Part shown: positions 2,456 to 20,037 of the stretch, one piece after another | Layout of the letters: every line of letters begins with the position of its first letter | How positions within the stretch are numbered: position 1 is the stretch's first letter | DNA from: a virus | IMG/VR virus record: IMGVR_UViG_3300024520_002077 | Span: 1-20,037 of that record | Length of the DNA stretch: 20,037 nt | Strand: one strand, 5' to 3' | The notes under the pieces: model-generated | What the model saw: the letters and a program-made list of their open reading frames with translations, nothing else | What the model was told of the DNA's origin: nothing | Database searches by the model: none | Position numbers and translations under genes: made by a program

Positions 2456-2600
2456 TTTCTTTCTCCCTTTGGTAAATCTGCCAGACGCGCTGCTTGCTAA
2501 TGTTGAACCATTTAGCCACGGCTGTTTTTGTCATGTGCCTTTGATCGATCATGTGAACGATTTCGGCGTTACGCATTTCTTTAAAAACGTTCTTACTCAA
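2403..2600 (-). CDS. Small helix-turn-helix DNA-binding protein
   Basis: The protein has 65 residues. Residues 10-47 form a predicted HTH, with NAEIVHMIDQRHMTKTAVAKW as first helices and FNISKQRVWQIYQREK as turn and recognition helix. The recognition helix resembles sigma region 4 (RVWQIYQREK against RVRQIEAKAF in the downstream sigma-like gene). The tail from residue 52 is short and acidic. I chose the TTG start at 2600-2598 because GGGAG lies 6 bases upstream and the TTG overlaps the primase stop (TTGA). An ATG at codon 9 has no comparable ribosome site. The last 53 bases overlap the helicase gene in another frame. It is probably a transcriptional regulator; its target is unknown. Confidence 0.75.
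   Translation of the reverse strand: MSKNVFKEMRNAEIVHMIDQRHMTKTAVAKWFNISKQRVWQIYQREKESVQDIRPTGDGEDNSTS
2463..2470 (-). promoter_or_regulatory. Ribosome binding site deciding the GTG start of the SF1 helicase
   Basis: On the minus strand AAAGGGAG stands 7 bases before GTG 2455-2453. It lies inside the upstream HTH gene, so the helicase initiates within that reading frame. Confidence 0.7.
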
Positions 2601-4135
2601 AACGGGCTCCCATGTTTTGGCGCAAAGTCCGGTGTAGATATATCCATGTCTCCTACATTGTAGGCTGGTATCTGCCAGACGCGGACGGCTCGACCTTTGA
2701 TCTTGAGCACAGTGCTGTCACCATTAATGTCCCGCAGACGTTGGGCAATGCGGTGCGACTTATACTCAAAGAATTTATTCTTCTTTAGAAAGTTCTCAAA
2801 GTCCTTGAGGCGGAAGTAAGTGACCATTGCTTCCTCGTCGGTCCAAGGGCGGCGGAGCAAGATTTCCTCTTTGTCCTGCGCTTGCTGTAGGAAACGACAG
2901 AACTCTTCTAGGTAATCGTAGAACTGCCCGCTGATGCTGGCGTCTACGGCTACTTCCATGATGGCGCTTTCGTTCTCGCGCATTTCTGTAAGCAGGGCGC
3001 TGATCCGACCTTCCCACTGTTGCTTTGCCACGCTACGCGGCATGAAGTTCAGTTGCTCCATACAGGCTTTTTGAAACATGGGCTGGCTCATTAGGGCGTC
3101 TGTGTCTAGCTCCAGAGGCTCGCCGTTAACGTCCATAAACCAAACCGGGGGTGTTGAGTTATACTTACGCAGATTAGCTACTGTAGCGTTCTGTATGGCG
3201 CTCCCAATGCCAAACTTGCGAGTTTGGCAGAGCTCCTTGTTACAGTGTGCGTTAATCGGCGCATCACTGCACCTGTAGGCGTAATCCTTGCGGTCAAGCT
3301 GCTTTGCCACCACGGTAACTTCTGACAGAGGCAGGGGCGGCTCTAAGTACTGCATGTTGTACGTTAGGATTTCTGTTTCCCAGCTATCGGGGTACGCTTT
3401 GCGCAAATAGACGCCGATATTAAACAGACCGTTATTGCGCCCACCTTCTGAGATTTTCTCTTTGACAAGGTGCTGTATGCACGGCGGACCGTCTCTAACA
3501 GGCGTACCTTCGGCGCTTTCTGTAATCTGTAACTTTTGTATCTGTTCTGGGGTCTGAGCATACTTTTCGTAAAGCTCAAAGAACTCTTCAAGCGAAGCAG
3601 ATGTGCCGTCGTCCAAGATGCCGTAGCGTAAACCTTCTTCCGCGTTATAATACGGTAGGTTTAGAAAGTTTCCTACATCTCCGCGGTCCAAGTGCAGTTT
3701 GATCTGCTTTGGAAATATCTCGCTCTCACCGTAGCCCAGCGCAGCGGCCACGCTCTTCAATGATTTCTGCATGTCCTTTGCTTCAACCCAATCTGTAGAG
3801 AAGAGGAAGCAGTGAGCCCCACCGGACTTAGAACGGCATACAACCAGAGGTATATTTAATTTTCTAATCTTTTCCAACAAAAGCTTGTGGTCTAGCGGAT
3901 ACTGATCGATATCAACGCAGCCCCATTTGCACATGTTGTCGGCATTAATCGGTATGATGCCGATAGAGTTGCCCTTACCGGACAGGTGGCCTTCCCATAG
4001 ACCCGCGTTCCGCGGTTCACGAACGATGCCCGCTTTACCTGTGTTCTTACCGTTGGACTGCGTTTTGTCTACGCGATATGTACCGTAAGCTTCTTTTAGT
4101 CCATCAAAGATAGACGAGAACTTTTTAACTGTCAT
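2597..4135 (-). CDS. Archaeo-eukaryotic-type DNA primase (AEP, TOTE-like) with PriCT-like and Cys/His region
   Basis: The protein has 512 residues. The N-terminal half looks like an AEP primase/polymerase. CVDIDQY at 73-79 holds the DxD metal pair (D75, D77), SGGAH at 104-108 is the SxH nucleotide-binding motif, and FPKQ at 141-144 is followed by NFLNLPYYN at 156-164. Residues 230-288 (GGRNNGLFNIGVYLRKAYPD, then PPLPLSEV) resemble the PriCT helical domain. A Cys/His cluster follows (C289, H297, C298, C303) and could bind zinc. The last 170 residues are helical and end in a possible winged helix. No helicase domain is fused, so unwinding would come from the separate SNF2 and UvrD genes. The start at 4135 has AAGGA 7 bases upstream. 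The assignment to an AEP is firm; the TOTE subfamily name is from memory. Confidence 0.82.
   Translation of the reverse strand: MTVKKFSSIFDGLKEAYGTYRVDKTQSNGKNTGKAGIVREPRNAGLWEGHLSGKGNSIGIIPINADNMCKWGCVDIDQYPLDHKLLLEKIRKLNIPLVVCRSKSGGAHCFLFSTDWVEAKDMQKSLKSVAAALGYGESEIFPKQIKLHLDRGDVGNFLNLPYYNAEEGLRYGILDDGTSASLEEFFELYEKYAQTPEQIQKLQITESAEGTPVRDGPPCIQHLVKEKISEGGRNNGLFNIGVYLRKAYPDSWETEILTYNMQYLEPPLPLSEVTVVAKQLDRKDYAYRCSDAPINAHCNKELCQTRKFGIGSAIQNATVANLRKYNSTPPVWFMDVNGEPLELDTDALMSQPMFQKACMEQLNFMPRSVAKQQWEGRISALLTEMRENESAIMEVAVDASISGQFYDYLEEFCRFLQQAQDKEEILLRRPWTDEEAMVTYFRLKDFENFLKKNKFFEYKSHRIAQRLRDINGDSTVLKIKGRAVRVWQIPAYNVGDMDISTPDFAPKHGSPF
2607..2611 (-). promoter_or_regulatory. Ribosome binding site supporting a TTG start
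   Basis: GGGAG on the minus strand is 6 bases before TTG 2600-2598. It is embedded in the end of the primase gene and supports the TTG start of the 65-aa HTH protein. Confidence 0.6.
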
Positions 4136-5633: not shown

Positions 5634-7073
5634 TTGTACCAGTTCAAAACAGAACCGTTCGACCATCAGCGTAAAGCTCTTGAAGGCTCGTGGTCCGCGA
5701 AGTTTCATGCGTACTTCATGGAGATGGGAACTGGTAAGAGCAAGGTAGCCATTGATAACATGGGTATTCTTTACGACAAAGGTGAAATCAACGCCGCTTT
5801 GATTGTTGCACCCAAGGGTGTTTACGACAACTGGGCACTTGGCGAGATACCGTTACACCTGTCTGAGGCCGTCAACCGAAAAGTTTTAAGCTGGAAGCCT
5901 ACGCTTAGTAAGCGGTACGCTGCCGAGCTTGAAGAGATGATTATGGAAGACTTTGACGGGCTGAAGATATTTGTCATTAACGTAGAGGCGTTTTCCTCGC
6001 CCCGCGGTGCGCGGATGGCGGGACGCTTTTTGGTACAGAACCCCGACAACATGGTGATAGTAGACGAAAGCACTGCCATCAAAAACCGCAAAGCCCAGCG
6101 CACAAAGAATCTCATGGTGCTTACTAAGTATAGCAAGTACCGCCGCATTCTTACGGGGTCTCCTGTCACAAAAAGCCCTATGGATTTGTTTAGTCAGTGT
6201 AATTTCTTGGATGAGCGCGCTCTTGGGTACAACAGTTTCTTTGCCTTTCAAAACCGTTATGCTATAGTTCAGAAGCGTATGATGGGAGCGCGCAGTTTTC
6301 AGGAGATAACAGGGTATAGACGATTAGATGAGTTGAACGAACGCTTGTTTAACTTCTCCACCCGCATCCTGAAAGAAGAGTGCTTAGACCTTCCTGAAAA
6401 AATATATACGCGCCGGAATGTAGAACTAACGGACGAACAGGCCAAGGTTTACATGCAAATGAAGAAGCTGGCTTTGGCCCAGCTTGATGGGGAGCTTGCA
6501 ACTACAGAAAGTGTGCTGACGCAGATCATGCGTCTACAACAGATTTGTTGCGGTTTCTTCCAACCGGACGTTGGAAAGATACAACCGCTAAAGAACAACC
6601 GTCTGAGTGAACTAACCAGCATTACAGACGAGCTATCAGGGAAGGCAATCATTTGGGCGTCGTATACCCACGACATTCAACAGATTTGTCAGACCCTGCG
6701 CGACCGTTTCGGGCCCGATTCGGTCGCACTTTATTACGGGGAAACGCCCCAAGACGAACGGCAGGAGATTGTTAACCGTTTTCAAGACGTTAACGATCCC
6801 CTGCGCTTCTTTGTTGGTCAGCCTAAAACAGGTGGGTATGGAATTACTCTGACAGCCGCCAACACGGTTATATATTACAGCAACTCTTACGATCTTGAGA
6901 TACGTTTGCAGTCCGAGGACCGCGCTCACCGGATCGGGCAAAAGAACGCCGTCACATATATCGACTTGGTTTCACCTAATACCATTGATGAAAAGGTCTT
7001 AAACGCCCTGCGCAGCAAGATTGATCTCGCTGGGCAGGTTCTCAAAGAGGATGTTAGCGGGTGGCTGACATAA
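5634..7073 (+). CDS. SNF2-like superfamily 2 helicase/translocase
   Basis: The protein has 479 residues from a TTG start. The motifs in order are HQRKAL at 11-16, motif I MGTGKS at 31-36, motif Ia VAPKGVYDNW at 58-67, motif II DEST at 144-147, motif III LTGSP at 173-177, motif V around GGYGITL at 400-406 and motif VI QSEDRAHRIGQ at 426-436. The last is the hallmark of SNF2-family ATPases. Phages often carry such proteins in replication blocks, where they may open the replication bubble or remodel DNA-protein complexes. It is short, without accessory domains. It is the only rightward gene, divergent from the replication block, and its 3' end overlaps the 1234-aa structural gene head-on by 20 bases. 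Confidence 0.9.
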   Translation: MYQFKTEPFDHQRKALEGSWSAKFHAYFMEMGTGKSKVAIDNMGILYDKGEINAALIVAPKGVYDNWALGEIPLHLSEAVNRKVLSWKPTLSKRYAAELEEMIMEDFDGLKIFVINVEAFSSPRGARMAGRFLVQNPDNMVIVDESTAIKNRKAQRTKNLMVLTKYSKYRRILTGSPVTKSPMDLFSQCNFLDERALGYNSFFAFQNRYAIVQKRMMGARSFQEITGYRRLDELNERLFNFSTRILKEECLDLPEKIYTRRNVELTDEQAKVYMQMKKLALAQLDGELATTESVLTQIMRLQQICCGFFQPDVGKIQPLKNNRLSELTSITDELSGKAIIWASYTHDIQQICQTLRDRFGPDSVALYYGETPQDERQEIVNRFQDVNDPLRFFVGQPKTGGYGITLTAANTVIYYSNSYDLEIRLQSEDRAHRIGQKNAVTYIDLVSPNTIDEKVLNALRSKIDLAGQVLKEDVSGWLT

Positions 7074-10000
7074 TTCCAACGGGTTCCTGTTGAGTCAAAG
7101 CTTCCGCCATGTTTGCCAAAGAGTACTTTTCCATCAAGTTTTGGCGACTTGGCTGTAATGAAACGTCTATTTGTTCCAACTCGGGTTCTATCAACTCTTC
7201 CGGTCTAGCCATAGGACGCAAGCTAGTTGCAGGAGCCGAAAACTCTATTTCAGGGGGCCGTGACATAGGCCTAACCCCCCGCCCACGAGCCACATCTTCG
7301 GCGTTAAAAACGGGCTGGTTCATTATAAAGTTTTCCGCTCCGGTGTTTATAAGCCCTTCTACGCTGTTGCCTGTAAAAGGCTCCGCAATAATCCTCAGAT
7401 AGTTTTGAGTTTCTTCAAACGGTGGAACGCCTTGATACTCTTCTACATTACCCGGACCCGCGTTATATGCTGCTAAACCTACCTCAAGACCAAACTGGTC
7501 GGTCATTTGTTTAAGATACTTTAAACCACCAGTGTAATTATCCAGAGCGTCGTTTATGTCCACGCCTAACTCTTCGGCAGTTCCCGGCATTAATTGCATC
7601 AAACCGCGGGCACCTTTTTCGCTCCCCGCACTCTGGTTACCTTTGCTTTCCTCATACATTACCCGAAGAGCCAACTCAGGATCAATTCCTTGCTCCAAAG
7701 CTACTGCAACTGGGTCAAACCCGTAAGTCTCTCGTACCATTTTAGCTAAGTTAGCTAAGTCCTCGGTTGAAGCGCGTCTTGACGCCACTTCAGACGATCC
7801 GCCCTTTTCCATATACACAGGCCCGCCGTCCGCGAACGATTGCAGCGCGAACGATTGCAGCGTGGAAGGGTTTTTTATTTGACCGAAATGCTCATTAAAC
7901 ACGGAGCTTAAATCGGTTGAGAAATCAGGAAAATTAGTGGGCTGGTGCATCCCCGAGAAAAGACTATCTTGGAAGACGCCAGCATTATCTTGGAACGTTT
8001 GTTGTTCTTTTTGAGAAACTTCCCGCAAGAACTGATCGCGTTTCTGTTCAAAATCTGGATCGCCATACTGCCGTTCTAAATACTGGCCGTATTGTTGCAA
8101 ATGCTGGCCCATGTTTGGACGATTCATCAAATCCCCCATATGTCCTTGAAACATAGACTGTCCTGACGCAGGAGGAAGCCTTTGAAACATAGACTGTCCT
8201 AACGCAGGAGGAAGCGTCTGGCCTACGGGGGAACCCATTGGAGGACCGCCGGGGAAACCCAGGACGCCTAAACGACTCATATCTGGAAGTTGGGGCATAT
8301 ATGCTCCAAAACTTCCAGAAATGTTTACAATGCCACCTTCTGCCATACCCACGGGTAGATATTCCGGATCAGGAACCAATGTGTTACCACCCGCTGGAGT
8401 GAAATCATCGGCGTAAAGAACATCACTTGCAGAAGTAGCCGCAGTTCCTATCATCGGAACACACGCACCCGCGCCGTAATCGTAAACATACCCCGGGCCA
8501 CAGCTTCCGGGGCCACTTTCGTTGTCAGACTTGTTCATGTCCTTCATCATAGCGTCCATGCGCTCTCTAGCGGCACTGCTTAAAGACAAGTCATCCGGGC
8601 TTTCAACCATCATAGGCAACCCTGTAACGCTGTTTATAACGTAAAACGATCCAGACCCCGTTTGGTAAACGTTTTTATCGTCTGTAACCTTAACAATTGG
8701 ATCGGTTTTGCGTATTCCACCAAGATATGCCAAGCCTTTTAAACCCAAGCTTATAGGGCCGGGAAACATTGTTAGGCCCTGATTTCTTGGGTCATCTGGA
8801 TTACCCATAATTCCAGAGCCACGCATTGCTGCAGTAGCCTGAGAATTTGGATTAAAGAAATCTTTAGCTTTACCATAAGCGGCGGCCAGAATGCCTTGTG
8901 GCTCGGGTTCTGGTTTAGGCTGTACGACGTTTGCTGCTGGGGCAGATGACCCGCCCCCGTTATCAGAAGAAACAGGCGGCGCTAAGTTGGCCGGACGCAT
9001 CCGAGGTCTAATGCTTGTCTCAGGGGCGCTGCTAGACGTAAAACCTTCAAACCCTGCGCCGGGGGTGTAGTTTGAGCCCCCTGCCCAAGTACTTGGTTCA
9101 AATAACTTCCAATAGGCTGGAACGCCACCCGGACCCGGAAGTCCCGCGCCACCGTTTTCCAAGAGCATTTGCTCTTCTTCGGGATTAATATACGCCAGCA
9201 TGTGCGGCTGATTGTTAATCATTGTCTGCCGTGGAACAGCGCCGCCGTCCACGAACTGTTGATAAGCACCAATGCCCCGCGGTCCGCGAGTCATGTTCCG
9301 GGCTGTTTCGTTCAGTGTTCCAATGCCGCTCATAACTGCGCCTCCGTCTGCCATCCCGATGTTTTTCAAATCAGTAAGTCTTGGGTCAAATATGGCGGTA
9401 GGAGAACGTAGGTTTCCACCTTCAAAAGAAGTTATCTCGCCGTAATGTGTCGAATCAACTCCAGCAAACCCTTGATCCATCAGGCGCTGGTTTGCCAATC
9501 TGTCTAATTCGACTGTATCAAGGTCTGGGTTTTGTTGTAAAAGTTCTCTCCGAGCCGCCGTATAGTCGGTTGATTTAGCGAATGGCCCTCGTTGGACCAA
9601 GGGATACATCTGAGACCCTTCAGGAATTCTATCTGCCGCGCCCTTGCCCCGGTCAATAGATCGTGGGTCTGGATTATATCCCGCAAATCGGTTGGCTGTT
9701 GGATATGGAATTCCTGACGGATTTACAATTTCACCGTCTCCAAAATTCATTCCTGTGGGCTCAACATCAAGATAAACTCCACGGCCCGATTTTCCGTAAG
9801 TTGAAGGATTCAGTACGCGAATGTCATCTACCGAAACACCTTCTTGTGTGGGCATTGTCCCGTGAACGCCCACCCGTTCATAACCTTGAGCCAGCATCCT
9901 TGCTTCTCGTTCGGCATTGTCTAGAGTTATCGGAATTCCGTCGGCATCAACACCCACGTTCCCATCAATGTAATGTTGCCGTAAACGTATTTCCCCCAAG

Positions 10001-10758
10001 AAATCCAACTCTTCTAAACGCTCGTCCGTCACAAGGTCTGTATTACCCGCGCGAAGATCGGCGGCTATTTCATCGGCAAGCCTTTCTGTATCCGTCAGTT
10101 CCCTAACCGCTCCTGATACAGCGCCCTCTTGGTTGGCCGCGTAGTTTTCTACCCGGACATCAATCTCGTCGGGAGACAGATCGGTGTTTCTTTCTAGGTT
10201 CAGACGATAGTTGTTAATCTCTGTGTCAATGGATCGACGGTTTAGACCAGCGATATCGTCTGCTAAATCGGCTGGAACCCTTCGAACCATTGTTTTCACG
10301 GCAGGACCCGCAATGGGAATCAAGCCCGCAGCTTCTCCCGCTGCCATAATTCCCATTTTTAAAAGGCTCGGGTCTTCGGACTGACTTTCTTCGTAAATCT
10401 CTTGTCCCGTTCTAACGGCTGCAAGAGGAGTAAAATCTATTGCAGTTTCTGCGGCGCGCACACTTAAAGGTTTCTTTTTGCGGTAAGAACCCGTCAGAGG
10501 GTTAAACCGACTGAAAAAAGATTCGGCCTCGCCACCATCTTGAAACGAAGCAATCCCCTGTGGCACAGGACCTTTTACAGGAGGAGGCCCATATGCCTCG
10601 CCGCCACTGGCAAAAGAACCAAGGCCCGCGGTCCGCGAGTACCCGTCCGGGTTAAACATCTGTTTTCTGTAAGCCGACTTCATTGCGTCGATTGCCGCGG
10701 CTGATTTCCCGTCTCGTAACATTTGGCGTTCAGCGTCTTGAATTAGTCTGAAATCCAT
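7054..10758 (-). CDS. Giant virion protein with lytic transglycosylase domain and possible ADP-ribosyltransferase-like region
   Basis: The protein has 1234 residues. Residues 1022-1130 are a soluble lytic transglycosylase domain: VMYEES with probable catalytic E1037, GLMQLMPGTAEELG at 1052-1065 and AAYNAGPGNV at 1096-1105. It would cut peptidoglycan during DNA entry. Residues 291-467 resemble polyvalent-protein ADP-ribosyltransferases: VHGT (H299), GRGVYLDVEP (Y329), a GFAGVDST turn, GEITSFEGGNLRS (E441) and AIFDPRLTDLKNIG. The remainder is low-complexity Gly/Pro/Met linker with GG motifs at about 49-54, 72-77, 469-475, 502-508, 805-811 and 974-981. RPMxRP motifs lie near 586, 1163 and 1181. 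ATG 10758 has TTGGAG 6 bases upstream, 3 bases after the previous stop. It is probably packaged and ejected, similar in logic to T7 gp16. The transglycosylase is firm; the ART call is tentative. Confidence 0.85.
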   Translation of the reverse strand: MDFRLIQDAERQMLRDGKSAAAIDAMKSAYRKQMFNPDGYSRTAGLGSFASGGEAYGPPPVKGPVPQGIASFQDGGEAESFFSRFNPLTGSYRKKKPLSVRAAETAIDFTPLAAVRTGQEIYEESQSEDPSLLKMGIMAAGEAAGLIPIAGPAVKTMVRRVPADLADDIAGLNRRSIDTEINNYRLNLERNTDLSPDEIDVRVENYAANQEGAVSGAVRELTDTERLADEIAADLRAGNTDLVTDERLEELDFLGEIRLRQHYIDGNVGVDADGIPITLDNAEREARMLAQGYERVGVHGTMPTQEGVSVDDIRVLNPSTYGKSGRGVYLDVEPTGMNFGDGEIVNPSGIPYPTANRFAGYNPDPRSIDRGKGAADRIPEGSQMYPLVQRGPFAKSTDYTAARRELLQQNPDLDTVELDRLANQRLMDQGFAGVDSTHYGEITSFEGGNLRSPTAIFDPRLTDLKNIGMADGGAVMSGIGTLNETARNMTRGPRGIGAYQQFVDGGAVPRQTMINNQPHMLAYINPEEEQMLLENGGAGLPGPGGVPAYWKLFEPSTWAGGSNYTPGAGFEGFTSSSAPETSIRPRMRPANLAPPVSSDNGGGSSAPAANVVQPKPEPEPQGILAAAYGKAKDFFNPNSQATAAMRGSGIMGNPDDPRNQGLTMFPGPISLGLKGLAYLGGIRKTDPIVKVTDDKNVYQTGSGSFYVINSVTGLPMMVESPDDLSLSSAARERMDAMMKDMNKSDNESGPGSCGPGYVYDYGAGACVPMIGTAATSASDVLYADDFTPAGGNTLVPDPEYLPVGMAEGGIVNISGSFGAYMPQLPDMSRLGVLGFPGGPPMGSPVGQTLPPALGQSMFQRLPPASGQSMFQGHMGDLMNRPNMGQHLQQYGQYLERQYGDPDFEQKRDQFLREVSQKEQQTFQDNAGVFQDSLFSGMHQPTNFPDFSTDLSSVFNEHFGQIKNPSTLQSFALQSFADGGPVYMEKGGSSEVASRRASTEDLANLAKMVRETYGFDPVAVALEQGIDPELALRVMYEESKGNQSAGSEKGARGLMQLMPGTAEELGVDINDALDNYTGGLKYLKQMTDQFGLEVGLAAYNAGPGNVEEYQGVPPFEETQNYLRIIAEPFTGNSVEGLINTGAENFIMNQPVFNAEDVARGRGVRPMSRPPEIEFSAPATSLRPMARPEELIEPELEQIDVSLQPSRQNLMEKYSLANMAEALTQQEPVGIMSATR
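7369..7695 (-). other. Lytic transglycosylase (SLT) domain segment
   Basis: This part of the 1234-aa protein (residues 1022-1130) has the E-S pair with probable catalytic E1037, GARGLMQLMPGTA and AAYNAGPGNV in the order and spacing of the SLT family. All key residues seem intact. Confidence 0.9.
7831..7860 (-). repeat. Perfect 15-base tandem duplication
   Basis: CGCGAACGATTGCAG occurs twice in a row (7831-7845, 7846-7860). In the protein it doubles LQSFA just before the FADGGPV motif (LQSFALQSFADGG). No base differs, so the duplication is probably recent slippage. Confidence 0.95.
8145..8216 (-). repeat. 36-base tandem repeat
   Basis: Two adjacent 36-base units (8145-8180, 8181-8216) differ at only a few bases. 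They encode LPPALGQSMFQR and LPPASGQSMFQG in the Pro/Gly/Met-rich linker of the 1234-aa protein. Confidence 0.92.
9276..9291. repeat. 16-base GC-rich repeat, copy 1
   Basis: CCCGCGGTCCGCGAGT is identical to 10625-10640. Here it is read as T-R-G-P-R, in a different frame from the other copy. The core CGCGGTCCGCG is an odd-centred palindrome, and 12 bases of it recur at 18378-18389. Confidence 0.85.
9358..9888 (-). other. Possible ADP-ribosyltransferase-like (ART-PolyVal type) domain segment
   Basis: Residues 291-467 of the 1234-aa protein show the ART order: an H in VHGT, a Y in GRGVYLDVEP, a hydrophobic MYPLVQRGPF strand, GFAGVDS and an E in YGEITSF. They end in AIFDPRLTDLKNIG, close to the FDP-ending tails of ART domains in polyvalent and prophage proteins. 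The match is by eye and from memory; H299, Y329 and E441 are the proposed catalytic residues. Confidence 0.5.
10625..10640. repeat. 16-base GC-rich repeat, copy 2
   Basis: Identical to 9276-9291 but read as S-R-T-A-G. Peptide conservation therefore cannot explain the match. Confidence 0.85.
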
Positions 10759-10761
10759 AAG

Positions 10762-13700
10762 TTACTCCAATAAGCTTGCAATACCACCACGGCGCATTTG
10801 TCTTGGTTGCATCATACTAACTATCGGATCATTTGGGAATAGGGCAGCGTACCTAGTCCTGTCTACCGGACCAGAATTAACTGGGGCCGGGGCTGGACTA
10901 GGTACGGCCGACGCCCGAGTGGTGGGAGGTCCTACGGGCGAAGGTGTCGGGACCGGGGGCCGCGGAGGGGGAGCCACCGCGCCTTGCTGGTCGTTGGAGG
11001 GTAAAACATTTTGAATAAAGAAAGGTGTAGACTGAGGCGGTGTTTGACCTTCAGTATCTTCAAATACACCCTCTCGCGTAACCGCTGGAAGGGCTCGACG
11101 ACCAACGTTTGCCGCGCCTTGGCCTGCGGGAATAAGTCCCTTCTCTACCAGAAGTGCGGTCAATCTGCCACCAATGGCACTTTTCTCTCTTTCTGTGCGA
11201 CCCTTTTTAAGCATCACAGCCAACAACTCGGGGTCTCGCATCATCTGGGTCATAACATCCATTTTCATGGACTCTGGGATGTTTGCAAAAACTTTTGAAT
11301 AGGCTGTCCGAAAGGCTTTTGAACCTGCGCTGGCCGCGACAAGGGAGCCCCCTGCGGTATCGCCGGGAACAAGGCTTTGCGCTCTAGTACCAATCGATGA
11401 ACCGACAATCCGCAAATAAAAGTCCATCATGGGGCCTACGGTTTCGGCTAAATCCCCAAGATCGACACCATCTTTCATGGTGAACGACTCCATTTTAACC
11501 ATCTCACTCGTAATTCTTTTGAGACGATCGACCTCTACTTTTGGCATGACTTCTTTTTCAACAAGCCATTCTGCCAAAGTTATTTTACCCGGAGAGTTGG
11601 GGTGCGGAAGAAAGATAGCCTCGTATAACCCCTTGGGGCTGAAAGAGTTGCTGGTCTGACCGTTTCTTGTATACAGGGATTCTATCAAAGAACTTCTGAA
11701 GCCTTCCAAAGCCTCTTCTTTTGTGCGGGTCACGCCTGTGGCGTCTGTCCAAGATTCTGGGGCTTTTTCAACAACCTTCCAGAGATTATTTAAGCTCTCA
11801 ATCGGTCTTTTGTTATTTTGGTTAAACGCGCGAGCAAATGCGGTGGCAGGGTTTTCTGTTGTATTTGGAAGTAAATCCATAAACGAAATTTGACCGTTAA
11901 GCTCTTTCAGAGCTTCTTTGTTTGCCGCGGTTCCTTCTTTCAAAAGAAGGTTTGCTGTAATGCTGTTTTCTAAGTCCGCTTTGAGCGCAGGCATAGCGTT
12001 TAAGACATCGACATTTTCCGGCTTCGCCATCCACTTGTTCAAAGCATCGACGTTGACCACACCTGTTTCAGGATTGTACGCCGCGGCTCTAATGTTCCGC
12101 AGAATTGTTTCCGTAGTCCCGCGGACCGTGGTCGTTGTGTTAACAGCTTGTAGAACGTTATCTCGGGCCTGTGGAAACTGAGCCAAAGCGTCGGAATTGT
12201 CTGAAATCCAATCGGTTAGTTTCTTAGTGTCGATCATGTCATTATCTTTGTTAATGACTGTAGACATCATATCATCAAGAAGCGGCTTTAGCTCGCCTTT
12301 TGCGTTTCCAGCAAGGTTTGTCAAACTCTGTGTAAGCTCGAACTTTCCAAGACCGTCTAGCTGCAAGGACCGCAAGTATCCGGCGTCCGCATTAAATATG
12401 TCGTTTGCAATTTGTTCGGGGGCAACTTTCGGTGCTCCCGTTTTGCTTACTCCAAGAATGTCTCCGGCAAAGGTTCGAGTGTACGCATCGTTAAACGCGC
12501 GAGAATATGCTCGGGCCGTATCATAGGCGGGATCAACACCCTGCGGAAAGCTTTCCAAATCCCGCATCAACGCCTCTGCAAAACCGTAAGCAATTCGCGC
12601 ACCCGAACTGTCGCCCGCTGCGGCGAGCATACGAGCTTTGCTCAACGCCGAAGTCCGCATCTCTGTAAGCTCTCGAATAGAAACCGCGCCGTCAGTAGCC
12701 TCGTCAGTAGCTGCCAAAGCACCCTCTCGGGCCGCATCCCGGGCGGTTAAACGCTCAACATCAGCAAGCTCATCAATTGCTTTGGCCGTGCGTCTTTCTA
12801 TAAGCTTATCTTCTGCGTCAGCCGCTTCTCTGCGAACTATACTGGCCCTTTGACGTAGAAAAGTAACTCGCTCGTCTATGTCCGCAATCTGACTAGCTTG
12901 ATCTCTTACTGAATTAAAACGATCAACGTTGTACGTTACTCCACTTATGGCGTCTAAAGAATCCTCAAGACGTTCCCGAGCTTGCACTAATCTTGGACTA
13001 GCTACAACCTCCGCAGCCGCGCCTTCTTCTGGAAACAACTCGTTTCTTTTCCGAGTAACAAAAGCGTTTATTGCACTAAGTGGTTTTTTAACCTCATCGG
13101 CAGCTTCAACCGTTTCCGGTAAAGTGTTTTCCCAGTATGACATGAAGTTAGGGACATTTGTGGCATTACCGTCCGCGTCAACAAACTCCGTGAGGGTTAG
13201 ATTTGGACCCGTATTTCTCCAAAGCGTTCTTTCTTGAGCGCGACCTGCCTTAAAACGAGCGTCAATAACTTCGTATAACTTTCGCCCAAGTGTTGCCTGT
13301 CTCTCCGCGGCCCAATCTGGTCCCCGCTTGCCCGCAACCTTGTCAAAGGAGGATAATACCTCGTTCATCGCGCCTAAAAGATTATTTTCCAAGTCTGCAT
13401 CAAAAACCGCTTGAGCCAAAAGTGCGCCTTCTTGAATCGCGCCTTTGTCCCCTGTTCCATACAACGCAACAATCGTGTTCCGCAGTGCGCGGTCCGCCTG
13501 TACATTGGCAGAGTTACGCTCTTTGGAAAGACCCACGGCCATCTGTTCTAGGGACTTTTCTAAAGCTGCAAGTGTAGGTGAGCCTGATTTAAGTGCGGCG
13601 GTAAGCGCAATTGGCTTGCCGGAATCGTCCATCAACAGGGATTCAAACTCTTTAGAGCTTAGGGCTGCAATCACGGCCTCCGTATCTTCGCCGCTTTCTT

Positions 13701-14796
13701 CCAGAAGGTCTAATATGTAATTTGTAACTTGAGTTTGTCGCTTGCCTTTAAACGCGGTCGCAAGATTAACCGCACCTTCCTGAACTCGCCCTTCTTTTAC
13801 GGCACCGTATCCCGCTTTTAATGCTCCGAAAGTTGTTGGAAGTCTCTTAGTAATAAGGTTTCCAAGAAGTAGGGCGCTTACACCGCCAGCTAATTCTCCA
13901 GTTATTCTAGCGGCGGTACTTCCCTCTAAGTCGGAACTTTCTACAGCATAAGCGCCGCCTGTTGCTCCGGCTCCAGCTAAAGTCTCCACTGCGCCAAACT
14001 TTAGTTTGTTAGCTTGAGCTTGAGCGCCCATAGTGCCTACGGTGCTTTCTAGCCCCCTAGCTACTTTGAGGCTTAGAGGTATTTTCTGACCTTCTTTTAC
14101 AAGGTTCTCCGCTAACTCCACGCCGAAATTAATTTGTTTTGGAACCATATACGGCATCGGAAGCCATGCCAAAGCGCCCGCCGCGGTCTTTCCCGCCTCG
14201 TAAGCCGCGGCTGTTCCCGGCAGGAGTGGTGACTCTTCACCTTGGATCGCATCGTTTACTTGCTCTCCGACAAAATAACCAAGCCCTGCGCCGACAGTTC
14301 CTGTTACAAACGGAAGCCCAAATCTCAGAACCGCGGCGGGTCCAACAGGAGGAACACCCGCAACCGCCGCTTGTCCTAAAGCAAAACCGCCCATAAAGGT
14401 TGGAACCGATGCTGCCGCAGGAATAATCTCACGTTTTGCTCCACCAAGAAACGTCCCCGCTTGAATGGGCTCACCCTCTAAGTCTCTTGCAAAGAACTCA
14501 ATAATATCGTTGTCCGACAACCTACGTTCGGCTGGAGATAAACCCGCCAACTCAGGGATCGTGTCTAAAATCGGCGCAGTCCCGTCTCTTAAACCGCCAT
14601 ACGTTAAGTAATCGGGCCGTTCTGGAAAGTCCTCCGCCAATACCTCGACCATGCTAGAAGTAAACGCAGAGGTGTCTCCACCAAAGAGACTAAAATCCGT
14701 TTCAAACTCATCTTTGTCATACGTTAAAAAAGGAAGCGACGGAGCAACGGGTTCAACGGCTGGTTCAACAACGGGAACAGGAAAGGTGTCTGCCAT
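10762..14796 (-). CDS. Giant probable virion/ejection protein with apolar Gly-Ala segments and basic C-terminal tag
   Basis: The protein has 1344 residues and I recognise no enzyme motif. The N-terminus (1-30) is Pro/Val/Glu-rich. Residues about 124-180, 200-220 and 268-315 are Gly/Ala-rich and apolar (PTFMGGFALGQAAVAGVPP, TVGAGLGYFVGEQ), as in proteins that enter a membrane. Residues about 605-720 are charged and helical, a likely coiled coil (FLRQRASIVRREAADAEDKL). Residues about 1262-1312 are a proline-rich linker. The extreme C-terminus has RYAALFPNDPI followed by MRRGGIASLLE, which I recall as a recurring ending in marine phage proteins. ATG 14796 has AAGG upstream, 6 bases after the previous stop. 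By size, apolar segments and place before a transglycosylase gene it parallels podovirus inner-core proteins; this role is inference. Confidence 0.75.
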   Translation of the reverse strand: MADTFPVPVVEPAVEPVAPSLPFLTYDKDEFETDFSLFGGDTSAFTSSMVEVLAEDFPERPDYLTYGGLRDGTAPILDTIPELAGLSPAERRLSDNDIIEFFARDLEGEPIQAGTFLGGAKREIIPAAASVPTFMGGFALGQAAVAGVPPVGPAAVLRFGLPFVTGTVGAGLGYFVGEQVNDAIQGEESPLLPGTAAAYEAGKTAAGALAWLPMPYMVPKQINFGVELAENLVKEGQKIPLSLKVARGLESTVGTMGAQAQANKLKFGAVETLAGAGATGGAYAVESSDLEGSTAARITGELAGGVSALLLGNLITKRLPTTFGALKAGYGAVKEGRVQEGAVNLATAFKGKRQTQVTNYILDLLEESGEDTEAVIAALSSKEFESLLMDDSGKPIALTAALKSGSPTLAALEKSLEQMAVGLSKERNSANVQADRALRNTIVALYGTGDKGAIQEGALLAQAVFDADLENNLLGAMNEVLSSFDKVAGKRGPDWAAERQATLGRKLYEVIDARFKAGRAQERTLWRNTGPNLTLTEFVDADGNATNVPNFMSYWENTLPETVEAADEVKKPLSAINAFVTRKRNELFPEEGAAAEVVASPRLVQARERLEDSLDAISGVTYNVDRFNSVRDQASQIADIDERVTFLRQRASIVRREAADAEDKLIERRTAKAIDELADVERLTARDAAREGALAATDEATDGAVSIRELTEMRTSALSKARMLAAAGDSSGARIAYGFAEALMRDLESFPQGVDPAYDTARAYSRAFNDAYTRTFAGDILGVSKTGAPKVAPEQIANDIFNADAGYLRSLQLDGLGKFELTQSLTNLAGNAKGELKPLLDDMMSTVINKDNDMIDTKKLTDWISDNSDALAQFPQARDNVLQAVNTTTTVRGTTETILRNIRAAAYNPETGVVNVDALNKWMAKPENVDVLNAMPALKADLENSITANLLLKEGTAANKEALKELNGQISFMDLLPNTTENPATAFARAFNQNNKRPIESLNNLWKVVEKAPESWTDATGVTRTKEEALEGFRSSLIESLYTRNGQTSNSFSPKGLYEAIFLPHPNSPGKITLAEWLVEKEVMPKVEVDRLKRITSEMVKMESFTMKDGVDLGDLAETVGPMMDFYLRIVGSSIGTRAQSLVPGDTAGGSLVAASAGSKAFRTAYSKVFANIPESMKMDVMTQMMRDPELLAVMLKKGRTEREKSAIGGRLTALLVEKGLIPAGQGAANVGRRALPAVTREGVFEDTEGQTPPQSTPFFIQNVLPSNDQQGAVAPPPRPPVPTPSPVGPPTTRASAVPSPAPAPVNSGPVDRTRYAALFPNDPIVSMMQPRQMRRGGIASLLE
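10765..10854 (-). other. Conserved-looking C-terminal tag of the 1344-aa protein
   Basis: The last 30 residues carry RYAALFPNDPI and then QPRQMRRGGIASLLE, after a proline-rich linker. The compact, basic, GG-containing ending looks like a separate docking or packaging peptide. Its function is not known to me. Confidence 0.5.
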
Positions 14797-14802
14797 GTTA
14801 AT

Positions 14803-17800
14803 CTACCTTTTTTTCTGACGCATCGAAGCTTTTGCAGCGTCAATCGCTTCTTGGTTTATACTGGCTTCACCAAGCAGTGTAATTGGACCCAGAATACTTT
14901 CAAGACGGTCAATTTCAAACAACTTCTGATTAAGGGTAGATTTCATCGTGCTGTCCATAGGCGTTCCGCCTGCAAACATTTCTAAAATGCGAGTCTTTTC
15001 TTCTGCAAGATAGCCCACAATATCGTTGAGCTTTCTAGCTTCTGTTTTAGGACTCGCCAACAAAGCCTGTTCATTTGGAAACAACTGCTCGGTTGTTTGT
15101 AAGTCCGCAACCGCAAATCTTGGCGAGGAAGCCAGAGCAGAACGACCCATAACGCGAATCATTTTGACAAACTGACGAGCGTCAGTAGTGTCTTTAAACA
15201 AATCTCCAAAAGCCCCCGGCGCTAAACCACCCGCAACAGCGTCAAGTCCGGCATATACCTTTGACCAGAAACCTGTACCTTTGCGAGCCGCAGCAAATGC
15301 GTCTTTAACTTCGACCATTTCTGCTCTGGAAAGTGGCGAACCATCTATTTTTGTCATACCTTTAAGAAGCTCGGCGTCCAAAGCGTCCAATTGAGCTTGT
15401 GCGCCAGCCGCCATCTTCTCGTTTTTAGCCACTTCGTAAGCAATCGTGCTGGATACCTCAAAGGCCCCACCCGGAAGCGGTTTCGCGTTACCATCTTCAT
15501 CAACGTATGTTTTACCGTCGTAAGAAGTAAACACACCCTCACCCGGAACAAGAAAGCCGCGGATCGCAGTGCTTGCTGTTGGAACTTTTTGATACGAGGC
15601 AGAGCCGGGAGCCGCGGCATTTGCAGCGTTAACTTGCTCTATCAAAGCCTTGCCCTGCGGGCTTGTAATGTCGATCACGGTCGTTACAGGGACGCCGTCG
15701 GCGTTTGGAAGAGTAACCTGCGCCATAGACGGGTCTGGAACGGTCGGATCGCCGAAAATAACTTCAGTCTCTCCGGTAAGCGTGTCAACTCGAACAAGCT
15801 CACCGTTTATTTCACGCAACTCAATGGTGTCTCGGTTAGCAACAACGCGGTTTTCTGCCGCAATCTTTGCGGCTTGATCTCGTTCAAAGTTGTTTTGATT
15901 TACAATGGCTGCGCGATCCTCGGCGTTGATCTGACTTTCGTCTCTAAGCCCTTGAGCAACCAACAACCTTGCAATGTCGTTTTCTTGAATTATAGCTTGA
16001 CGAGTTACGAAAGTTGTCTGAGCCCGCTCTTCTGCACTTAGGGCTCTACCCAAAGCTCTTTCTTCTTGGGCAATCGTAGACGCAATCTGCGCAGCAATGT
16101 CTGCAAGCTCATCCGCGCGGTTCCGACCATATACGACTGTTTCACGATCCACTGCACGATCTTCCGCGGCAATTGCAGTTGCAAGAGCACGTTTTTCTGC
16201 GTCAATCTGAGCCTGTATCGCGCGGTTTTCTCTTCTAATAGCTGCAAGCTCGGCACGAGCTTCCTGCGCTTCCTGCGTTGCAAGTCTGCGATCTTCTGAT
16301 CCAAGAGTAGTTTCAAGCAGGCGAGCTTCGGTTTCGATAAGCCGTTGCTCCGCACGGCCTTCAGAAGCAATTGCCATAAGAACAGCCCGCTCTTCTCTAC
16401 TAATTGTTGTGATTTCAAGACGATTTTCTGCGGCAAGGGTAGTTGCCAAAGCTCTTTCTTCCGCCGCAATATCCCGCTCTACTGCGCGCGCTTCTTTCAG
16501 TATAGCAAACTCGTCGGTTATTGCTGCCGCTGCAACCTTATCGTCAGTCGTAAAGCCCTGTGCAAGTAGCGCGCTTACGGCGCTTCGTTCTTCCGCAGTG
16601 TTTGTTGGTTTAGTGACCGGAACTGTGGGGTTTTTCGGGTCATACATTGTAATAGTTTTAAACCCGGCATCTGTTGGGGCCGCGCCAACGTTATAAACTT
16701 TTGCGCCGTCTAATTTGGAAGCAGCGTTAAAATCTTTTCGACCGTCCGCAGTACTTAGATCAAACGTTTGCGCTTGTCCGGAGGGTGATACAACAATTTT
16801 AATGTCCGACTTGCTGCTATCCGCAGGCTCCGTACCAACGTTATACAAATTGGCGTCGGGGTTAGCTTTAAGTGCAGCCTCTAATTTAGCCACGCCGTCC
16901 GACGTTGAAACGTTAAAAGTACCCAGCTTTTCGCCGTTTGGACCTATCAGTCTTTGATATTTAGCGTCTCCGGGCTTCGCTTTAGCCGCTGCTAACAACA
17001 GAGCCTGACGAGAGGCTTCATCAGTCTGAGCCTGACCCAAACTTGCCTGTCGTGCCTGCATACGCATCTGACGCTCTTCAGCTTGTTGAGCCTGCTTGGC
17101 GGACAACATGCCCGCGGACCGCTGTCCGATCTTGTCGGTTAACTGAGTTTGCGTCGCGGCATTAGCCAAGCGTTCCGCAATAGAGTCACCCTGCGTTTGA
17201 CCAGCAAAATTCAAAGCCGTGCCCGCAATGTCAAACAACATCTGGGCCTTCGCCATCTTGTTCTGTTCTTCAAGAGCCGCGGCCCGCGCTTGTTGGTCAA
17301 AGCCCCCTGCAAAATACTTCTCGTAATCTGCAACGTCTCTCTCGGCCTGCGTTAAAATACGGCTTTCGCCGCCTTCTGAGAATCTGCGGACCTCTACAGG
17401 TCCGCCATTTCTAAAATTTACGGGTGGTGTGTTGCCCGCCCCCGCCATCATTAGGGAGCCTACACCCTCTTCCATCGGGCCTTCCATATCCACCGAGCCA
17501 GAAAGGCCTTGCATCAGTTCTCCGATGCCGCTGTCCATAGCGCCTTGTTGTGTCATCATAATAGTGGGCTGGGTCAGGGCCAAAACAGATTCTGGAGTTG
17601 CCATGGCGTCTTGCTCACCGACGAGGGTTGCAAGTTCTTCGTACCTAGCTTCCAAAGGCAGGTTGTTGCCCCGAATGCCGTCGATTAAAGTCTGGTAATC
17701 TTCCGCGCCATCCAGCTTCATCATCATGTCGTCGGCCATCTGCGTCCCGACTTGCTGGCCCATCATTTCGGCACCCGCAACCTGTTGTTCCGCCCCTTGA

Positions 17801-17907
17801 GGCGGCATCATCGCAGGAGCCGGGGGTGGCGGCATCATATCTTGAGGCATCGGTTGAGCGGGTCCACCCATTTGTCGAAACAATGGTCTGTTCATTACAT
17901 TTGGCAT
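14803..17907 (-). CDS. Large probable virion protein with hendecad-repeat rod
   Basis: The protein has 1034 residues. The N-terminus is Met/Pro/Gln-rich (RQMGGPAQPMPQDMMPPPP at 11-29). GG motifs lie at 165-171 (FRNGGPV) and 176-181 (FSEGGE). Helical segments with Ala/Gln follow to about 310. Two copies of a small domain come next (329-364 and 379-414), both ending YNVG. Residues 470-704 form a rod of 11-residue repeats with consensus xxExRAxxxxI. The C-terminal third (705-1034) is globular, with beta-type stretches (VRVDTLTGETEVIFGDP), FWSKVYAGLDAVAGGLAPGAF and a helical end. No enzyme motif was seen. ATG 17907 follows the upstream stop directly (TAAATG), with GGGGA upstream. A long straight helical bundle spanning a membrane or tail tube is a plausible role, not shown. 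Confidence 0.75.
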   Translation of the reverse strand: MPNVMNRPLFRQMGGPAQPMPQDMMPPPPAPAMMPPQGAEQQVAGAEMMGQQVGTQMADDMMMKLDGAEDYQTLIDGIRGNNLPLEARYEELATLVGEQDAMATPESVLALTQPTIMMTQQGAMDSGIGELMQGLSGSVDMEGPMEEGVGSLMMAGAGNTPPVNFRNGGPVEVRRFSEGGESRILTQAERDVADYEKYFAGGFDQQARAAALEEQNKMAKAQMLFDIAGTALNFAGQTQGDSIAERLANAATQTQLTDKIGQRSAGMLSAKQAQQAEERQMRMQARQASLGQAQTDEASRQALLLAAAKAKPGDAKYQRLIGPNGEKLGTFNVSTSDGVAKLEAALKANPDANLYNVGTEPADSSKSDIKIVVSPSGQAQTFDLSTADGRKDFNAASKLDGAKVYNVGAAPTDAGFKTITMYDPKNPTVPVTKPTNTAEERSAVSALLAQGFTTDDKVAAAAITDEFAILKEARAVERDIAAEERALATTLAAENRLEITTISREERAVLMAIASEGRAEQRLIETEARLLETTLGSEDRRLATQEAQEARAELAAIRRENRAIQAQIDAEKRALATAIAAEDRAVDRETVVYGRNRADELADIAAQIASTIAQEERALGRALSAEERAQTTFVTRQAIIQENDIARLLVAQGLRDESQINAEDRAAIVNQNNFERDQAAKIAAENRVVANRDTIELREINGELVRVDTLTGETEVIFGDPTVPDPSMAQVTLPNADGVPVTTVIDITSPQGKALIEQVNAANAAAPGSASYQKVPTASTAIRGFLVPGEGVFTSYDGKTYVDEDGNAKPLPGGAFEVSSTIAYEVAKNEKMAAGAQAQLDALDAELLKGMTKIDGSPLSRAEMVEVKDAFAAARKGTGFWSKVYAGLDAVAGGLAPGAFGDLFKDTTDARQFVKMIRVMGRSALASSPRFAVADLQTTEQLFPNEQALLASPKTEARKLNDIVGYLAEEKTRILEMFAGGTPMDSTMKSTLNQKLFEIDRLESILGPITLLGEASINQEAIDAAKASMRQKKR
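15796..16500 (-). repeat. Hendecad (11-residue, 33-base) repeat array
   Basis: Residues 470-590 of the 1034-aa protein form eleven units in perfect register: LKEARAVERDI, AAEERALATTL, AAENRLEITTI, SREERAVLMAI, ASEGRAEQRLI, ETEARLLETTL, GSEDRRLATQE, AQEARAELAAI, RRENRAIQAQI, DAEKRALATAI and AAEDRAVDRET. Weaker units continue to residue 704, with one 4-residue insertion near 657-660. E at position 3, R at 5 and I/L at 11 are nearly fixed. An 11/3 periodicity predicts a straight or slightly right-handed coiled coil. Confidence 0.9.
16666..16923 (-). repeat. Two-copy domain repeat in the 1034-aa protein
   Basis: Residues 329-364 (TFNVSTSDG, then LYNVGTEPADS) and 379-414 (TFDLSTADG, then VYNVGAAPTDA) share pattern and length, with a 50-residue offset. 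They are diverged at DNA level, so the duplication is old or maintained. Confidence 0.8.
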
Positions 17908-18903
17908 TTAGAATATCCCCGCTGTTTTTGCGCCCGATGCGGCGCTTAATCCACCTATACCCAAACCAAGCGCCGTTTGGAACGGAGAAACTTGTGGGGC
18001 AGACGCCGCAGTGAGCGTAGATGACCCCGAAGGTGTACCAGAATATATGTCTGAAAGAAAGCCGTACTGTTGATACGGCTGAGTATAACGCTGCAAGTTA
18101 GACAGTCGAGTAGCATCAAGACCCGCTTGATCCACGCCACGCTGCAAAGCACCCGTAGTCATAAGCGTGTTCAAGTCCTGAGTACCCAAAACAGAAGTAA
18201 GTTCTCCAAGGCCAGCCTGTTGAACACCTAGTTGACCGAGATTAGTCCCTAATTGACCAATGCCCTGACCAAGCTGACCGTATGCCGTTGCCATGTTCTG
18301 TTGACGACTCATGGCAGAGTCAAACGCGCCCATGCCTAGCTGTTGAGCTTGACCGTAACCAGCTGCCCGCATCTGAGCCGCGGTCCGCGCTTGTTGATCC
18401 AAGGCATTTCGGCCTTGCTCCGCCTGAACAATAGCGTCCCGCGATCCACCAAAAGCGCCAGCACCTACGGCCCGAGCGCGGTTACCCACTTGAGCAATGT
18501 CGCTGGCTCGTTGGATGTCGCCCATAGCGGACTGAACCGCGGCGTCTTCATATGGATTCATATAGGCTTGATACGAAGTAGGGTCATATTCTGCACCCGT
18601 ACCAGCCAAACTTTGAATGCCTTGCCCGAAAGTGTCGACAGCGCCAGACACCATTCCTGCGCCTTGACCCAGAGTTTGAGTGGCGGTATCAAGAAACGGC
18701 TTATAGGCTCCAACACCCTGACTAGCGCCGCTAATCGCCGCTAGTTCGTTTTCAGAAAGGTCGGCAATAGTGTAGTCCGGCGGAACAACCCCCGATTCAA
18801 TTTGATCTTTTATGTAACCTTGAACATCAGCTAACAGACCAAGGCGATATGCTTCAATTGCCGGGTCTTGGCGGTTGGTTACAATGGTTTCTTGTACAGC
18901 CAT
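17908..18903 (-). CDS. Gln/Gly/Ala-rich phage structural protein, function unknown
   Basis: The protein has 331 residues. I recognise the sequence type from marine phage genomes: YDPTSYQAYMNPYEDAAVQS near 105-124, RARAVGAGAFGGSRDAIVQA near 142-161, and DQQARTAAQMRAAGYGQAQQ near 168-187. A GQLG repeat stretch follows (YGQLGQGIGQLGTNLGQLG, about residues 207-225). The long Ala/Gln segments look helical, and the end is small and apolar (ALGLGIGGLSAASGAKTAG). The gene lies between the glycine-zipper protein and the 1034-aa protein; its ATG overlaps the upstream stop (TAATG) and its stop abuts the next start. The ribosome site is weak, so coupled translation is likely. It is probably an inner-virion or ejection component. 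No function is established that I know of. Confidence 0.72.
   Translation of the reverse strand: MAVQETIVTNRQDPAIEAYRLGLLADVQGYIKDQIESGVVPPDYTIADLSENELAAISGASQGVGAYKPFLDTATQTLGQGAGMVSGAVDTFGQGIQSLAGTGAEYDPTSYQAYMNPYEDAAVQSAMGDIQRASDIAQVGNRARAVGAGAFGGSRDAIVQAEQGRNALDQQARTAAQMRAAGYGQAQQLGMGAFDSAMSRQQNMATAYGQLGQGIGQLGTNLGQLGVQQAGLGELTSVLGTQDLNTLMTTGALQRGVDQAGLDATRLSNLQRYTQPYQQYGFLSDIYSGTPSGSSTLTAASAPQVSPFQTALGLGIGGLSAASGAKTAGIF
18378..18402 (-). repeat. DQQAR segment shared with the neighbouring gene
   Basis: The DNA coding DQQARTAA here is nearly identical to 17277-17301, which codes DQQARAAA in the 1034-aa protein, in the same frame. About 20 of 21 bases match in the core. It also carries the 12-base CCGCGGTCCGCG element. 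Confidence 0.7.
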
Positions 18904-20037
18904 TATGCTACTGCGCCCCCTTCAAAAGCTCTCATCATATCGTACATCTTTCGTACACCTTCTTTACGGCTACCGTTACCCAGCCCGCGCACGGCTTGAG
19001 CGGTCATTACAAATTCTCCGTCGGACAACATTGCAGGGATGTCATCGGAAGTCTCTGTTCCGGGGCCTGAAATAAAACCGTTGCGGCGAGGGAAGCTCAT
19101 CTCACCACCCGCGGCAGCTGCCACAGGCTGTAGATATTTCTCGTAGTCAAAGTCAAATACTGGAATCTGCGGGGAGGGCCGTGTTGGAATCATTGTATCG
19201 GCTACCGTTAGATAAGTGGGCTGCGGTGCAACGCCTGTACGGTATTTATCAGGGTTTTCTGCCAGACGTTCTTCTGATGCTGACGGGCCGTCATACGGGT
19301 CTGGAACTTCCGCTGGCTCAATAGGGTCAAACCCTCCGGCTAACGCAGCAACCCCAAGACCTGCGGCGGCTGTTGGCAACAGTTTGATGCCGCCCTGTAC
19401 CGCAGGAGTTTGTATTTTTCCTGCTAAATTTATAACATCGGTGCCAGTAAATGGTTTCCCTGTGGCCTGTAGCTGGGTGGTAGCGTCAGCCATAGCTGTG
19501 GAAATATCTCCAGCGGGGACGGGCTCAGTGTAAAAGGCACCTTGAGTTTTTTGAAGGACCGTATCCATCGTGGTCGGCGGACCTTGGATAGCCGCGTTTG
19601 CCGCGTCAACATCAATCGGACGGCTAAGAAAACCGCCGGGGTTAGTTTCACTTCTTAGTATGTTGCCGGGAGTTGGCATCGCACCTTGTTGAAAGCCCTG
19701 ACTAAACCTTTGTGCAAAATTGCCTTGAATATTCTTGTTCATCGCGCCCTGAAAACCAGAGGTAATGCCCCCAATTGCACCGCCGATAAGACCCGCTTTC
19801 AAAGAGTCTTTAAAGCTTGCACCCTGCGCCAAAGCTGTAATGCCACCGCCAATAAAGCCCGAGGCCATGGTCCCTAAACCCGGAGCAAAGAAGTTAAGCG
19901 CCATAGGTACAACAATTGGAGCCACTGCTTTCAGGACATTCTTAACGCCTTTAATAAGCTTTTTAAGGAAAAACTCTCTCTGTCCAGTATACGGGTTAAT
20001 TGAATTTGACTCGCTGCCAACAATGTAAGCACTCGGG
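18903..20037 (-). CDS. Glycine-zipper virion protein with tape-measure-like C-terminal motif, N-terminus cut by window edge
   Basis: The frame is open to the right edge, giving at least 378 residues; the true start lies outside. The visible beginning includes INPYTGQREFFLKKLIKGVK, then a basic stretch and an apolar, Gly-rich region (VVPMALNFFAPGLGTMASG, then IGGGITALAQG and LIGGAIGGITSGF). That region looks like glycine-zipper membrane helices, as in small ejection proteins. The C-terminus has GFISGPGTETSDDIPAMLSD followed by GEFVMTAQAVRGLG, a motif I know from the ends of many phage tape-measure and related proteins (SDSIPAxLSxGEFV). It ends AFEGGAVA, a GG motif. It is the first visible gene of the right-hand block and likely forms part of the ejection channel. 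The motif is clear; the role is inference. Confidence 0.78.
   Translation of the reverse strand, partial: PSAYIVGSESNSINPYTGQREFFLKKLIKGVKNVLKAVAPIVVPMALNFFAPGLGTMASGFIGGGITALAQGASFKDSLKAGLIGGAIGGITSGFQGAMNKNIQGNFAQRFSQGFQQGAMPTPGNILRSETNPGGFLSRPIDVDAANAAIQGPPTTMDTVLQKTQGAFYTEPVPAGDISTAMADATTQLQATGKPFTGTDVINLAGKIQTPAVQGGIKLLPTAAAGLGVAALAGGFDPIEPAEVPDPYDGPSASEERLAENPDKYRTGVAPQPTYLTVADTMIPTRPSPQIPVFDFDYEKYLQPVAAAAGGEMSFPRRNGFISGPGTETSDDIPAMLSDGEFVMTAQAVRGLGNGSRKEGVRKMYDMMRAFEGGAVA

Follow-up and report, generated by a model that had tools for sequence, protein, structure and literature searches.

Protein H of phage phiX174 (Microviridae, PDB 4JPP) contains three hendecads followed by eleven heptads and assembles into a decameric tube of 170 Å, the lining of which consists chiefly of Gln, Asn and Arg residues (PMC7354561). 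The first-pass annotation of the DNA analysed here called an uninterrupted 11/3 array unusual among phage coiled coils; to take hendecads as alien to the injection proteins of phages would go too far, as protein H has three of them (PMC7354561). The ejection proteins of T7 (gp14, gp15 and gp16) and P22 (gp7, gp20 and gp16) are encoded by clustered genes that include an SLT/lysozyme-type member, and the T7- and P22-type ejection proteins have been described as mosaic, with domains moving between them (PMC8954989). Ejection proteins are also described as fast diverging. For HTVC010P-type pelagiphages there is a report of a segment that is hypervariable at the population level and is said to include an internal virion protein (PMC10504331).

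The protein considered here is encoded in a 20,037-base record of an uncultured virus, the whole of which is referred to below as the window. It is a candidate ejection (internal virion) protein of 1034 residues, read from an open frame at 14803..17907 (on the minus strand, like every other gene and module of the window for which coordinates are given below), has relatives in about 110 viral loci and bears a long array of 11-residue (hendecad) units. Judged by analogy, phiX174 H is its nearest functional analogue: both are injected phage proteins (a candidate one in the case of the window) with an 11/3 segment and a helical region of envelope-crossing size. However, protein H has three hendecads (QKE...) and then heptads, whereas the array described here has 11 strict and up to 15–19 units in all, marked by Glu1 and Arg3, and the H tube is a defined conduit, whereas the segment carrying the array is exchangeable. 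No homology to phiX174 H (PDB 4JPP) was found when the protein sequence or a profile of the rod was compared with the PDB. In the window, as in T7 and P22, genes of the ejection set are clustered and one of them is of the SLT/lysozyme type, but the ejection families of these phages show no sequence match to the protein, and a repeat-cassette exchange like the one described below was not found in the available part of PMC8954989. The hypervariable region of the HTVC010P-type phages belongs to a different phage family and is defined by read coverage, not by identified repeat cassettes.

What is added here is a protein with conserved ends and a sharply bounded, exchangeable middle for which at least three unrelated repeat types exist, one of them a hendecad array far longer than the three 11/3 units of the phiX174 H tube. 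We consider it probable, at roughly 60%, that this is the second ejection-set protein of a short-tailed, HTVC023P-like aquatic phage lineage, in which conserved terminal modules flank a spacer centre made of repeats.

Gene neighbourhood and relatives

The gene directly upstream (17908..18903) encodes a protein of 331 residues that resembles phrog_4287 (E 1e-9), a family annotated as 'DNA ejection protein'. Homologues of this 331-residue protein adjoin the gene under study in 95/95 loci with upstream sequence. Downstream lies a gene for a protein of 1344 residues (10762..14796), a homologue of which in phage DSL-LC04 is annotated as 'DNA transfer protein' (E 3.5e-36) and homologues of which adjoin downstream in 64/94 loci; it is followed by a gene for an SLT transglycosylase-domain protein of 1234 residues (7054..10758; PF01464, E 2e-19). 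Since an ejection-type gene lies upstream in all of the 95 loci, the protein most likely belongs to the internal (ejection) proteins of the virion, an assignment drawn from gene order and not from homology. The protein itself has zero Pfam or PHROG matches and matched no solved structure by sequence, and its relatives returned scattered weak family matches, none of them to an ejection family. Its original description as a phage structural protein thus stands insofar as gene position makes it a probable virion (ejection) protein, but it has no match to a known ejection family. A hypervariable centre flanked by conserved ends, together with structural genes close by, would also suit an external tail component that is not ejected and whose variable centre touches the host surface. 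However, the gene is located between an ejection-type gene and the DNA-transfer/SLT genes, and Pfam and PHROG revealed neither a receptor-binding nor a fibre domain, which makes a tail component quite unlikely.

Some further features of the window deserve mention in their own right. The SLT-domain gene contains tandem repeats at 8146-8215 (36-bp unit, 1.9 copies) and 7831-7862 (15-bp unit, 2.1 copies), which are recent by their identity of 97–100%. A protein of 340 residues (18903-19925) has a C-terminal SDDIPAMLSDGEFVMTAQAVRG motif in common with PHROG tail tape measure profiles; this similarity spans only about 30–60 residues, and the phage looks short-tailed. At 2597-4135 a primase is encoded that matches the archaeo-eukaryotic primase domain of TOTE conflict systems (PF22548, E 2.5e-12). 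The gene at 288-938 specifies a small protein in which sigma-70 region 4 is recognised (PF04545, E 2e-15) and which is possibly a phage sigma-like factor.

The approximately 110 loci were gathered with N-terminal and C-terminal profiles, and some of them represent one contig twice or are near-duplicates. All close family members are metagenome contigs; a search of bacterial genomes with the family profile returned no prophage or cellular relatives, and neither the full protein nor the rods matched deposited phages. HTVC023P-type pelagiphages, Roseobacter phage CRP-901 and DSL-LC04 share with the window a P22-gp10-type stabilisation protein (relatives of phrog_3287), and HTVC023P, HTVC027P and DSL-LC04 share the gene order of an ejection-type gene, an equivalent of the protein and an opposite-strand helicase. 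In CRP-901 the stabilisation protein alone was matched, a homologue of the 331-residue protein was undetected and the equivalent was placed by position alone. The equivalents in HTVC023P, HTVC027P, DSL-LC04 and CRP-901 comprise only 279–645 residues and carry no hendecad array, so that not every lineage needs a long centre. The equivalent in DSL-LC04, the sole one compared, resembles the window protein in the N-terminal module (E 5e-9).

Periodicity and helix geometry of the hendecad array

The region that first drew attention, 15796-16500, corresponds to residues 470–704 of the 1034-residue frame and had been described as at least eleven contiguous 11-residue units followed by weaker units in perfect register up to residue 704. 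Eleven strict units of the form E-x-R-A-x-x-x-x-I-x-x are indeed present at residues 472–592 (16132..16494), with a periodicity above all shuffles: amino-acid identity is 0.31–0.38 at lags of 11n compared with 0.10 at the remaining lags, and the self-identity summed over lags 11, 22, 33 and 44 amounts to 1.35, the maximum of 2000 shuffles at any period of 5–15 being 0.75. Glu1 and Arg3 each occur in 11/11 units, Ala4 in 8/11 and Ile/Leu9 in 9/11. A position matrix (PSSM) for hendecads, built from the window protein and L007, adds four weaker units in unchanged register (residues 593–636; 16000..16131), resulting in a chain of 15 units over residues 472–636 that scores 235 against a shuffle maximum of 13.7, although the unit at residue 604, inside this chain, scores below zero. 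Perfect register does not extend to residue 704. It ends at about residue 636, past which in-register scores are negative and a few weak matches occur at an offset of +4. The out-of-register helical stretch that follows (residues 637–690; 15838..15999) can be aligned in relatives lacking the strong array, its nucleotide identity to L006 and L012 being 0.61–0.71 versus about 0.4 further upstream.

The hendecad units are only 45% identical as DNA, so the array is not a recent tandem duplication; Tandem Repeats Finder likewise sees no array there, and this origin was ruled out. A codon-level signal, Glu1 being encoded by GAA in 11/11 units, was dropped: relatives show little of this bias, and GAA is in any case the more frequent codon.

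A peak at 98 degrees is expected of 11/3 helices. The strongest frequency of the large aliphatic residues (ILMVF) lies at 98.0 degrees (power 10.5, the limit for 99% of the shuffle maxima being 8.9) and that of charge at 98.5 degrees (power 16.2, with a corresponding limit of 9.0), in agreement with the 11/3 periodicity proposed at the outset. Eisenberg hydropathy likewise has its maximum at 98.0 degrees, though under its shuffle limit, and Kyte-Doolittle hydropathy has its top peak at 65.5 degrees, the 2/11 harmonic, because Ala is then scored as apolar. On a helical wheel, the aliphatic residues (52 degrees) lie on the same face as the acidic ones (36 degrees), and basic residues (207 degrees) occupy the opposite face. 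Glu1 sits between positions 4/8 and 5/9 within the apolar face, the mid-position of which is Glu in 11/11 units, and a continuous apolar core at a, d/e and h is absent. With Glu1 inside the apolar face the array is not a standard apolar-core coiled coil and, on its sequence, is classed as a hendecad helix and not as a proven coiled coil. Furthermore, Glu1 and Arg3 have no constant i+3 or i+4 partner within the helix, so that contacts between neighbouring helices are likelier, and the wheel suggests several helices packed side by side, in a bundle or barrel, by way of Glu–Arg contacts between helices.

Amphipathic periodicity of 11 residues is also what a membrane-binding helix of the apolipoprotein or synuclein type would display, and lipid binding had been named as an alternative. 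Helices of this type are recognised by an unbroken apolar face and a large hydrophobic moment, neither of which the array has: an invariant Glu lies in the apolar face, the moment is low (0.33 on the Eisenberg and 0.21 on the Fauchere-Pliska scale) and the net charge is -7 over 121 residues. Membrane binding is accordingly disfavoured and seems highly improbable.

In an AlphaFold2 monomer model of residues 440–1034 (32 sequences, pTM 0.36), the array is predicted to be helical, with a pLDDT mostly of 70–86 and helices at residues 504–531, 537–619, 625–652 and 662–690; an earlier model based on four sequences had a pLDDT of 43 and was unusable. The C-terminal part of the model is too weak to assign a fold, and a fold search with the model of rod and C-terminal module (pTM 0.36) returned nothing at E < 0.001 in viral or PDB libraries. 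If fully helical, residues 472–690 would measure about 33 nm by arithmetic (1.5 Å per residue). The proposal of a long rod is thus borne out as far as predicted helix and potential length are concerned, but not in its being uninterrupted, since the monomer model splits it into four helices.

Exchange of the central cassette

At both ends of the protein the sequence is conserved. The N-terminal module (residues 1–309; 16981..17907) has an MxRxLFRxGG start and a helix region of the form FDIAxTALNFAG...SIAERLANA, and a phmmer query with residues 1–310 matched 81/81 proteins of the N-terminal scan. The C-terminal module spans residues 690–1034 (14806..15840). In L102, L117, L121 and L125 the N-terminal part (residues 20–50, approximately) contains FPDLSGDGKVTQKDILMGRGV, which is like a calcium loop of the dockerin/EF-hand type; this motif is missing from the window protein.

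The middle has a different character. The exchanged cassette comprises approximately residues 309–575 (16183..16983) of the window protein and is non-alignable with the corresponding part of relatives that have GIP repeats (L003/L006) or beta-like repeats (L004/L012), while residues 575–690 are divergent yet alignable. In the window the cassette includes beta-beta-alpha-beta repeats at residues 313–458 (16534..16971), delineated by low-confidence AlphaFold2 secondary structure and self-BLAST; of three predicted copies, the first and second are alike (self-BLAST, E 7e-8) and the third is recognised by predicted topology only. The exchange is seen most directly between L002 and L003, which are the same contigs as L005 and L006. 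Their DNA is 98.8% identical up to locus position 6941 and 96.3% identical beyond the segment, and about 1.0 kb between the flanks gives no BLAST match: L002 has hendecads in this place and L003 eight GIP repeats of 26–28 residues with the form KGIPxxxFxxLxxxxKxxVLLGDPQGV. The window compared with L003 gives the same pattern, and in L004/L012, with the third, beta-like repeat type, the left boundary is the same and the right one similar. A lone swap could be a misassembly, yet three cassette types with shared boundaries occur in separate contigs. L006 and L125 share 53% identity in their GIP cassettes (over 254 residues) even though, in the C-terminal module, identity between L125 and the window is only about 34%, which fits horizontal movement of the cassette. 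In L042, a further cassette type was noted at target-protein residues ~340–800, with repeats of about 28 residues (DITDPxNVKVLY/DGQLIDYTDP) that are probably of beta type.

Hendecad chains scoring above shuffles were counted in 15 of the approximately 110 loci, with 4–19 units: 19 in L007, 15 in the window, L005 and L091, 14 in L013/L017, at least 13 in the truncated L093, 10 in L008/L097, 7 in L009–L011, 6 in L012/L016 and 4 in L006. In the remaining loci no chain was counted, L022 being marginal. Repeat number, for which a comparison among related phages had been proposed, is therefore stable in the closest relatives and variable across the family, and the hendecad array is not a family-wide trait. 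Cassette length ranges from 58 to 704 residues across the family, which ruled out a fixed length acting as a ruler, an idea suggested by the 371–380 residues found in L002, L003 and the window.

Near-identical phages use different repeats, so the protein cannot depend on one exact fold of its spacer, and the centre most likely serves as an exchangeable spacer and not as a fixed rod. A rod that the protein needs finds no support, since relatives with near-identical ends lack a strong array. Homologues without 11-residue periodicity, named in the first-pass annotation as grounds for giving up the rod, were partly found, in that such relatives have GIP or beta-like repeats instead. The same exchange bears on the possibility that the hendecads form a wall segment of a DNA-conducting, periplasm-spanning tube, an alpha-helical barrel like that of phiX174 H with charged residues facing the lumen. 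The three hendecads in the 170 Å decameric tube of protein H (PMC7354561), the Glu and Arg stripes on opposite faces, which suit ring packing, and the ejection-type gene neighbourhood are all in keeping with such a tube. However, the replacement of a strong array by unrelated repeats, partly predicted to be beta-like, in near-identical phages is hard to square with one conserved conduit, and no PDB chain was matched by sequence, so that a tube wall appears unlikely.

Substitution rates differ along the protein. When the window is compared with L005, the N-terminal module has a dS of 1.78, the beta-beta-alpha-beta repeats 0.115, the array 0.125, the stretch after it 0.045 and the C-terminal module 0.30, which indicates that the segments differ in history. 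The same comparison gives a dN/dS of 0.54 for the array, 1.0 for the stretch after it and 0.05 for the C-terminal module; with L091, which is more distant, the array has a value of 0.29 and the C-terminal module one of 0.11. The array is thus constrained, though less than the ends, and the high dN/dS values may reflect relaxed constraint rather than selection for change. Such values of 0.5–1.0 among close relatives, the wide range of cassette lengths and the mere 279–286 residues of the proteins at the equivalent position in HTVC023P and HTVC027P could also be accounted for by a low-constraint centre that expands and recombines owing to its repeats and has little role beyond length. Against such a relaxed filler stand the retention of Glu1 and Arg3 in every unit despite the low DNA identity between units and the constraint on the array over the longer distance to L091, and we regard it as rather doubtful.

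Possible role of the spacer in ejection

In the reading that we prefer, that of an ejection-set protein with a spacer made of repeats, the conserved N- and C-terminal modules would do the work shared by all members, namely assembly, both within the head and as part of the injected complex. The spacer of this phage would consist of beta-beta-alpha-beta units and then a hendecad helical stalk. Going by gene order, the protein would be packaged in the virion and ejected, and the spacer probably sets a distance or shows a variable surface while passing the host envelope.

More tentatively, and with less than even confidence, we propose that the cassettes recombine inside the ejection protein. Structurally dissimilar repeat modules, namely the helical hendecad stalk, GIP repeats of alpha type and repeats of beta type, would be traded as units between conserved ends, driven by host envelope variation or host exclusion factors, and would diversify the envelope-crossing part of the phage as tail fibres are diversified. 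Near-identical phages that differ in one segment of about 1 kb amount to natural swap experiments, which may reveal whether the length of the spacer, its packing or its match to the host is what matters.
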